In this document: positions 16,068 to 44,139 of the stretch, piece after piece
Layout of the letters: each line of letters opens with the position of its first letter
Numbering within the stretch: the first letter of the stretch is position 1
NCBI RefSeq assembly: GCF_000266885.1
Contig: NC_018020.1
Coordinates: 3,410,001 to 3,474,000, forward strand
Reading direction: 5' to 3'
DNA: 64,000 nt
Source of the DNA: Turneriella parva DSM 21527
Lineage (GTDB): Bacteria; Spirochaetota; Leptospiria; Turneriellales; Turneriellaceae
Made by a program: the position numbers and the translations under genes
The notes under the pieces: generated by a model
Databases searched by the model: none
Told to the model about the DNA's origin: nothing
Seen by the model: only the letters and a program-made list of their open reading frames with translations

Positions 16068-16175
16068 CGCCAGCCTCGCGCCCCGAAAACGGGCAGGCAG
16101 CGAAGCGCTTTAGCAGTAGTTCGCCCTGCGAACTACGAGGCCTGCGCGTTTTCGGGAACAAGCGCGAGGCTGGCG
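16068..16175 (-). repeat. Structured intergenic repeat, copy A
   Basis: Outer arms CGCCAGCCTCGCG (16068-16080) and CGCGAGGCTGGCG (16163-16175) are perfect. A second stem CCCGAAAACG.GCAGGC pairs with 16139-16155 with one mismatch. Inside, read on the minus strand, is GCCTCG, a 7-bp hairpin (16117-16123 with 16129-16135), then CTGCTAAAGCG (16106-16116). It lies between the convergent amn and diguanylate cyclase genes. See copies B to E. Confidence 0.75.
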
Positions 16176-28936: not shown

Positions 28937-29064
28937 TTACCTAAAAGGCGCAAAGAAACGCAAGCCTCGGAGATCACCGCAGGTGATCTCCTGCTAAAGC
29001 GGCCGAAACGGCCTGCTTGCAATTCTTTTTCGGCCGTTGGCCGAATTCGCGGCGTTTTAGGCAA
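28937..29064 (+). repeat. Structured intergenic repeat, copy B
   Basis: Outer arms TACCTAAAAGGCGC and GCGGCGTTTTAGG pair imperfectly, with inner AAAGAAACGCAAG pairing with CTTGCAATTCTTT. The core is GCCTCG, hairpin GAGATCACC-GCA-GGTGATCTC (28970-28990), CTGCTAAAGCG (28991-29001), then hairpin GGCCG-AAA-CGGCC. It lies between the convergent TPR and P83/100 genes and could double as terminator. Confidence 0.75.
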
Positions 29065-35696: not shown

Positions 35697-35846
35697 CGCG
35701 CGATTTGTTTGGGGCAATATCATTATTTTGACTCGTCTCGATCGCATCACAAAACCGAAAGCCTCGCAACTTTGCCGAGCAAAGTTGCTGCTAAAGCGGC
35801 GAAGACGCCTGCTTTCGGCCTTGTGATGCCCCGAAACAAATCGCGC
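35697..35846 (+). repeat. Structured intergenic repeat, copy C
   Basis: Nested arms: outermost GCGCGATTTGTTTGGGG against CCCCGAAACAAATCGCGC, then GCATCACAAAACCGAAAGC (35744-35762) against GCTTTCGGCCTTGTGATGC (35811-35829). The core is GCCTCG, hairpin CAACTTTG-CCGAG-CAAAGTTG, CTGCTAAAGCG (35788-35798), hairpin GGCG-AAGA-CGCC. It sits between ilvB and the next gene. Confidence 0.75.
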
Positions 35847-37653: not shown

Positions 37654-37905
37654 CAGTGCACTTGTCAGGTGCCGGCTCCGAAAATGCCGACGGGCAGCGC
37701 AGCGCTTTAGCAGGCGTTGGCCGAAAAGGCGCGCATTCGGCCCGGACGGCCGAAAAGAAAACCAAAAGCAGGCCGCTTCGGCCGCTTTAGCAGGAAATCG
37801 CGAAGCGATTTCCGAGGCTTGTGGTTTTCTTGCGCCTTTTTGGCCAATGCCGAGGCCCGGCGGCATTTTCGGCATCTTCAAGCCGGTGCCTGACAAGTGC
37901 CACTG
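37654..37905 (-). repeat. Structured intergenic repeat, copy D: two nested units
   Basis: Outer arms CAGTGCACTTGTCAGGTGCCGG (left) and CCGGTGCCTGACAAGTGCCACTG (right), then CCGAAAATGCCG against CGGCATTTTCGG. Read on the minus strand, the outer unit has GCCTCG, a long hairpin, and CTGCTAAAGCG (37703-37713). Its long hairpin stem is GCATTGGCCAAAAAGGCGC against GCGCCTTTTCGGCCAACGC. Within that stem lies a complete second unit: AAGAAAACC... arms, GCCTCG, GAAATCG-CTTCG-CGATTTC, CTGCTAAAGCG (37783-37793), GGCCG-AAG-CGGCC. No gene is present in 37617-37932. Confidence 0.75.
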
Positions 37906-44039: not shown

Positions 44040-44139
44040 CCGAAAAAGTGAAAAGCCTCGTCGTTTGCGAAGGCAAACGACTGCTAAAGCGCGCCGTCGC
44101 TTGATACCCAAGCGACTCTGCTGCTTTTCACTTTTTCGG
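44040..44139 (+). repeat. Structured intergenic repeat, copy E
   Basis: Perfect 17-bp outer arms CCGAAAAAGTGAAAAGC (44040-44056) and GCTTTTCACTTTTTCGG (44123-44139). The core is GCCTCG, hairpin TCGTTTGC-GAAG-GCAAACGA, CTGCTAAAGCG (44081-44091), then a larger hairpin GTCGCTTG-ATACC-CAAGCGAC. It lies in the promoter/leader region of pdhA, unlike the other copies, which are near gene ends. Confidence 0.75.

Follow-up and report, generated by a model that had tools for sequence, protein, structure and literature searches.

bcr1 of the Bacillus cereus group is a dispersed repeat of ~150 bp that is restricted to one species group and combines a conserved structure with features of a mobile element, and integron attC sites have variable stems, constant unpaired bases and one strand that folds better than the other. 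bcr1 is listed among the repeats in the accessible part of PMC2267715. QMITE2 of Coxiella burnetii, a prokaryotic MITE, has target duplications of 7–9 bp, as given in the available text of a review of such elements in which nesting is not mentioned (the word ‘nested’ occurs 0 times; PMC10969869). For Turneriella parva, the spirochaete studied here, the portion of the genome paper at our disposal reports zero CRISPR repeats and makes no mention of palindromes, transposons or intergenic sequence (PMC3746428).

We analysed a 64,000-nt stretch of T. parva DNA (‘the window’; positions 3410001–3474000 of the larger of the two contigs that make up the 4,409,302-bp genome), with positions counted from its first letter. 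The original prediction was that a repeat unit in this window contains an entire second unit in its hairpin, and this proved exact to the base: positions 37654–37905 form a single palindrome, opening with CAGTG at 37654 and closing with CACTG at 37905, whose P2 hairpin encloses a complete second unit. Each copy of the repeat consists of a long palindrome, P1, with a three-way junction at its tip, and on the better-folding strand (R, here the + strand) the core reads P1-GC, AGC-P3-GCT, TTAGCA, G-P2-C, GAG and GC-P1'. Both units have the form GCCTCG-hairpin-CTGCTAAAGCG-hairpin-CTGC on the – strand, with CTGCTAAAGCG at 37703–37713 and 37783–37793; from the outside inwards this strand runs through a long stem, GC, CTC, a hairpin arm, TGCTAA, a short hairpin, GC and the return of the stem. 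The outer unit, read on the + strand, comprises the 5′ arm of P1 (37654–37695), hairpin P3 (AGCGCAGCGCT; 37696–37706), the near-invariant junction strand TTAGCA (TGCTAA on the – strand; 37707–37712), P2 (37713–37851), the junction strand GAG (37852–37854) and the 3′ arm of P1 (37855–37905), which bears the longer unpaired run of an internal loop. P2 is enlarged by the inner unit to 139 nt, as against ~20–45 nt in other copies, and despite this all consensus junction letters of the outer unit are intact. The inner core gave a covariance-model match of 72.3 bits on the – strand (37758–37828) and has its own P3 (37770–37786), TTAGCA (37787–37792), P2 (GGAAATCGCGAAGCGATTTCC; 37793–37813) and GAG (CTC on the – strand; 37814–37816), all given on the + strand. 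An extra hairpin, P4, read by eye in the P1 arm of the inner unit (37736–37754, +), has counterparts that are similar in kind and place, again by eye, in the copy at 28991 and in L044, L046 and L037. The 252-nt composite has a predicted folding energy of –164.2 kcal/mol (z –12.4), and none of 200 shuffled sequences folded as low.

The two units belong to a large family. Allowing one mismatch, the 11-mer CTGCTAAAGCG occurs nine times in the window where 1.69 occurrences are expected, a count that none of 100 shuffles reached, and exact matches across the genome number 48, whereas the reversed control gives 13. Three of the 48 exact sites (in L010, L018 and L020) lack paired arms and look like chance; for the repeat itself, a chance origin was ruled out by the motif counts together with the covariation described below. 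A covariance model, R1, built on 26 short copies (alignment A2), matched at least 53 places in the T. parva genome, 50 of them at an E-value of 1.1e-5 or better, with 150 of 2542 first-look candidates scored. Copies are mostly solitary and intergenic. In the window, simple copies include those of the core at 16087–16151 (– strand) and 28954–29026 (+), the latter being closest in build to the inner unit, a copy at 35751–35822 (+) with terminal repeats of the GCGATTTGTT family, which is mobile in the related genome G006, and a copy of subfamily A at 44045–44134 (+), recognisable by RCAGGCTCCGG...GCCTGC plus a 3′ hairpin.

Five genomes in a phylum-wide draw of 149 matched R1, four from the genus and one weakly; a match in G122 (E 2.7e-4), whose fold lacks a clear canonical form, was set aside. 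Nine of 13 family genomes contain the exact pattern, or eight when G011, whose single match shows no P2 stem by eye, is not counted. These eight are the complete set of seven from the genus, plus G010, which belongs to a different one. R1-type copies are likewise present in all six sister genomes and in one further genus. Wider pattern scans stayed at chance level, with best scores of 18.5 bits for genome contigs (the 80 loci listed, of at least 115 stretches) and 16.7 bits for viral contigs (40 loci). No Rfam family scored above its gathering score, the matches being tRNAs and others at chance level, and no description of the repeat family was found in the accessible portions of the literature searched. 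As far as searched, the family of dispersed intergenic elements thus appears confined to this corner of the spirochaetes. One copy occupies the same place in T. parva and G005 (L031 and L274), indicating that copies can persist through speciation. We conclude that this is an undescribed family of dispersed, folded, MITE- or REP-like repeats; with its unusually constant three-armed core, it is more interesting than the single nesting from which it came to light.

Evidence on how family members move came from the sister species. Elements with GGGCGCGCGATTT-type terminal inverted repeats, found in G003, G006 and G001, are 156–177 bp long and, as is usual for MITEs, short and non-coding; nine near-identical copies in G006 share the ends GGGGCGCGGGATTTGTT.../...AACAAATCCCGCGCCCC, and related ends occur in G003 and G001. 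Among 19 terminal-repeat pairs, a number that includes at least two seemingly spurious ones (L237, of 194 bp, and L240), 11 are flanked exactly at their ends by an 8-bp direct repeat matching at seven or more of eight positions, compared with none of 2000 mixed pairings; with three bases of leeway the figures become 14 of 19 pairs and 1.6% of 2000 mixed pairings. Examples of the duplicated words are CCTATCGA, ATAACTAT, GCAACCGT and ACCGCCGC. These flanks show that core-bearing elements in the sister species move by means of terminal inverted repeats, with 8-bp target duplications. Two 74-bp forms, L302 and L308, lack the core and otherwise match L306; since the duplication around L302 is intact, the ends must be able to move in its absence. 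The search for an autonomous partner or a transposase came up empty, the single unpaired ends in the draft genomes leading to no transposase gene. T. parva copies are mostly older-looking, and most have no clear target duplication. Subfamily A, of which 16 copies were aligned, is bounded by RCAGGCTCCGG and its 3′ hairpin and shows no visible duplications. In G010 (L175, L184 and L192), the core with an AT-rich P2 lies between ends of the TGACAACCGCC/GGCGGTTGTCA type, a further terminal-repeat family.

Further builds were seen in T. parva. CTGCTAA, the core heptamer, recurs at the right border of several members of subfamily A (L009, L022 and L032, for example), with its complement at their left border, and in places these borders supply the stop codon of the neighbouring gene; the heptamers are perhaps a trace of older nesting. 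In L039, also of subfamily A (G000:C1:3170158-3171168), the flanks continue the palindrome (GAATGAGTGTTTA and TTAAACACTCATTC) in place of the usual 3′ hairpin. At L038/L263 (G000:C1:3111387-3112474), two units stand in tandem; the pair is partly decayed, and both of the joining strands carry extra helices.

We consider the composite to be two MITE-like elements, most likely with one inserted into the P2 loop of the other, and the folded core to be constrained, a reading to which we give a probability of about two in three. The second element would have entered the P2 loop of the first by transposition of the kind seen in the family, and would have been tolerated there because the outer end of P2 is probably the least constrained part of the core. 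Simple forms are the rule elsewhere: only this pair is nested among the 48 exact motif sites, and the copy at 28991 shares both the extra P1 hairpin and the arm sequence with the inner unit, showing that the inner kind exists alone. In the sister species G001 the same two neighbouring genes (ilvB, 87% identical, and the upstream gene, 37% identical) flank a gap of ~55 bp that contains no element, the opposite of a composite carried by relatives as one fixed unit. Since this orthologous gap (L277) lacks the whole composite and any palindrome, either the T. parva line acquired the composite or the line of G001 lost it. In G006 the gap upstream of ilvB (L280) is occupied by another long palindrome, whose ends (GGGGCGCGGGATAAATCCGGTGGG type) are similar and whose junction (GCC ... 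TCGCATAA) is a variant one; it may represent a class that is sister to the core.

Between the outer and inner stems, TTGGCCGA lies on one side (37717–37724, +) and TTGGCCAA on the other (37840–37847, +), each exactly 8 bp, the length of the duplications in relatives; if this is a target duplication, the inner unit would be AAAGGCGC...GCGCCTTT at 37725–37839 (+). Such a duplication fits insertion into the P2 loop and is suggestive but weak, the word being self-palindromic: a self-palindromic 8-mer in palindromic arms yields a direct repeat automatically, and such 8-mers are expected at ~1 in 256 per position, one being present in a 35-nt arm. With the inner unit removed, the outer P2 has only 6 bp, which is unusually short, and the minimum-energy fold of the remainder is not the canonical junction. 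No clear target duplication was seen at the outer ends of the composite, and the search for a second copy of those ends found none, the composite itself being only a palindrome. By eye, the copy at 28991 has no matching duplication either.

The composite might instead have grown in place, without transposition, if template switching (quasipalindrome correction) or recombination of neighbouring copies had lengthened P2 and joined it to P1 of another unit. The stem does run unbroken from the outer P2 into the inner P1, with no remnant of a loop and, P4 apart, few mismatches; the palindromic flank around L039 may have formed in this way, and L038/L263 offers a tandem partial copy. However, the inner unit is complete in itself, with a junction, P2, P3 and P4 of its own as in the free copy at 28991, and family members in relatives demonstrably move by terminal repeats and 8-bp duplications. 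We therefore regard growth in place as unlikely, although it is the alternative that fares best against insertion.

Insertion of one element into another at this locus does not establish a rule. The original reading is right about an element within an element here, but its broader idea, that hairpin loops of existing copies are where new ones insert or grow, is not supported: this is the one complete nesting, and the well-marked insertions in relatives lie at ordinary 8-bp targets. The family sequence examined contained no second complete nesting, the sole other close pair being the 3′ hairpin of L032. P2 loops and junctions of other copies have accepted hairpins: a palindrome of GTAG...CTAC-like sequence lies in the P2 loop of L011, L040 and L259, two extra hairpins lie in the CTC strand of L017, L028 and L038, and one lies in the TGCTAA strand of L261 and L263 (and, by eye, in G004:C6). 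These copies show tolerance of inserts, not targeting, and we conclude that the nesting is a single case and that hairpin loops are not established as a habitual target.

The constraint on the core is seen in how the copies vary. In an alignment of 81 distinct copies, 93.3% of pair cells are standard pairs, compared with 71.3% after shuffling, and 412 cells have changed on both sides, compared with 117; in slid controls, 31–51% were paired. Stem sequences differ between copies and covary, and the unpaired junction letters are near-invariant: CTC, TGCTAA and the start of P3 are 96–100% constant, and hardly any variation is seen in the first letters of P3 (AGCG) or in the feet of P1 (GC-GC) and P2 (G-C). 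Pair 6 of P2 is T-A in 80 of 80 copies, and the neighbouring pairs vary. The spacing among the conserved blocks is highly variable, so the constant letters meet only on folding. Taken together, these results show that the junction letters are constrained and that the stems covary.

Covariation of this kind could come solely from template switching that keeps DNA palindromes perfect, in which case the core need have no function as a folded strand. Consistent with this, two-sided changes (the 412 cells) far exceed one-sided changes that keep a pair, as copying of an arm in a single step would give. However, template switching predicts neither the near-invariant unpaired junction letters nor the invariant pair 6 of P2, nor does it predict a mismatch bias concentrated in the 13 bp nearest the junction, and we judge it quite improbable as the whole explanation.

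That bias bears on which strand folds. Watson-Crick stems are blind to strand, but mismatches are not, since A.C read from one strand becomes a G.T wobble when read from its complement. On the CTGC strand, P2 has no G.T and 16 A.C cells; P1 has 13 G.T and 30 A.C cells, several of the 13 coming from rows (L017 and L028 in alignment A3) that are misaligned by their extra helices. Arm cells divide 22:3 between A.C and G.T within 13 bp of the junction, 16:9 at 13–25 bp and 31:25 at greater distances. The counts include related, non-independent copies, but the A.C cells are spread over many columns and copies. In 58 of 67 elements the complement of the CTGC strand gives the more stable fold, and its G-U pairs number 152, to 79 on the CTGC strand. 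The excess of A.C near the junction and the better folding of the complement indicate that the functional strand is most likely R, the complement of the one first described, and that the constraint is local to the core. Selection for a folded RNA or a folded single-stranded DNA would leave such a mismatch pattern. The fading of this strand bias away from the junction also provides a simple test, from sequence alone, of which strand of a palindromic repeat is the functional one; other MITEs and REPs could be examined in the same way.

If the folded strand is what matters, the core may be read by a trans-acting factor, as RNA or as single-stranded DNA. The terminal repeats lie at the foot of P1, and transposable ends would carry a core that their movement may not need. 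We put forward, tentatively and at somewhat short of even odds, that the core represents a class of structured nucleic acid that is new, in which the junction is fixed, both of the long joining strands may carry extra helices and the stems are freely exchangeable. It would have spread through the genus on the ends of unrelated transposons and been kept for a function of its own, one for which the transposon has no need, the nesting being a by-product of a tolerant P2. Were the core a recognition element on several transposon families, it would be represented by dozens of copies with rewritten stems and a fixed junction, alongside mobile copies that lack it; such a natural experiment would separate what a mobile repeat needs for movement from its cargo.

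A cis-acting role in mRNA, for example as a terminator, a 3′-end stabiliser or an ilvB leader, is improbable. In T. parva, 20 of 42 occupied gaps lie between convergent genes, compared with 5 of 46 control gaps no shorter than 60 bp (p 1.5e-4, with a rough gene caller), and the composite directly precedes ilvB. A candidate ilvB leader motif has been described in Leptospira (in the available text of PMC8632094); the T. parva element, for its part, lies beside many other genes. Against a cis-acting role, only 3 of 32 placed copies in the relatives are convergent (10 more were unplaced), orientation is even, there is no Rfam match, copies adjoin many different genes, and the ilvB of G001 has no element. 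Copies are R-sense relative to genes by 11 to 4 in T. parva and 5 to 8 in the relatives; pooled over both, 16 R-sense and 12 antisense copies give no orientation bias that would mark an RNA function (p 0.57). No bias with respect to the replication strand was seen by eye among the R1 matches. We read the convergent enrichment as old T. parva copies surviving where they are least harmful, rather than as a function at gene ends. A scan of 40 sources for tRNA genes showed a copy adjoining such genes in four of them (L006, L007, L326 and L330).

That the elements are REP/BIME repeats mobilised by the Y1 (RAYT-type) transposases of the genome is highly improbable: the T. parva genome does have three PF01797 genes, and intergenic palindromes at gene ends are REP-like, but each Y1 gene is flanked by a different palindrome of its own, the core is absent from all three loci, PF01797 was not found in three of the eight carriers (G005, G006 and G010, drafts 82–88% complete), which together with the differing palindromes led us to reject such a drive, and movement of the family leaves 8-bp duplications, which Y1 transposases are not known to make. 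The three Y1 genes (L051 1380–1990, L052 1200–2000 and L053 1160–2100, in G000:C1 near 4295927, 24872 and 1284493, respectively) have the REP-like palindromes TGTAGGGGTAGGTTTAAACCTACCCCTACA, GTTGCCACGGGTTTAAACCCGTGGCAAC and TTGCCACCGAATTAATTCGGTGGCAA, and are apparently three separate REP-transposase systems in one genome.

The family described here resembles integron attC sites in its stem and strand features; its members are dispersed single sites and form no cassette array. The likeness to bcr1 is wider, taking in dispersal, restriction to one group, a length of ~150 bp, a conserved structure and features of a mobile element; bcr1 differs in structure and sequence, and in the present family the stems turn over about a fixed junction. 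With the REP/BIME repeats of RAYT systems, as presented in the accessible part of PMC3733652, it shares intergenic palindromes at gene ends, but it has no GTAG/CGTC foot tag by eye and no link to a Y1 gene, and in related genomes it leaves 8-bp duplications. The prokaryotic MITEs, in the available text of PMC10969869, are likewise 60–200 bp long and non-coding, with terminal inverted repeats, target duplications and a stable stem-loop on transcription; here no parent insertion sequence was found and, unlike in MITEs, several families of terminal repeats share one constant three-way-junction core.
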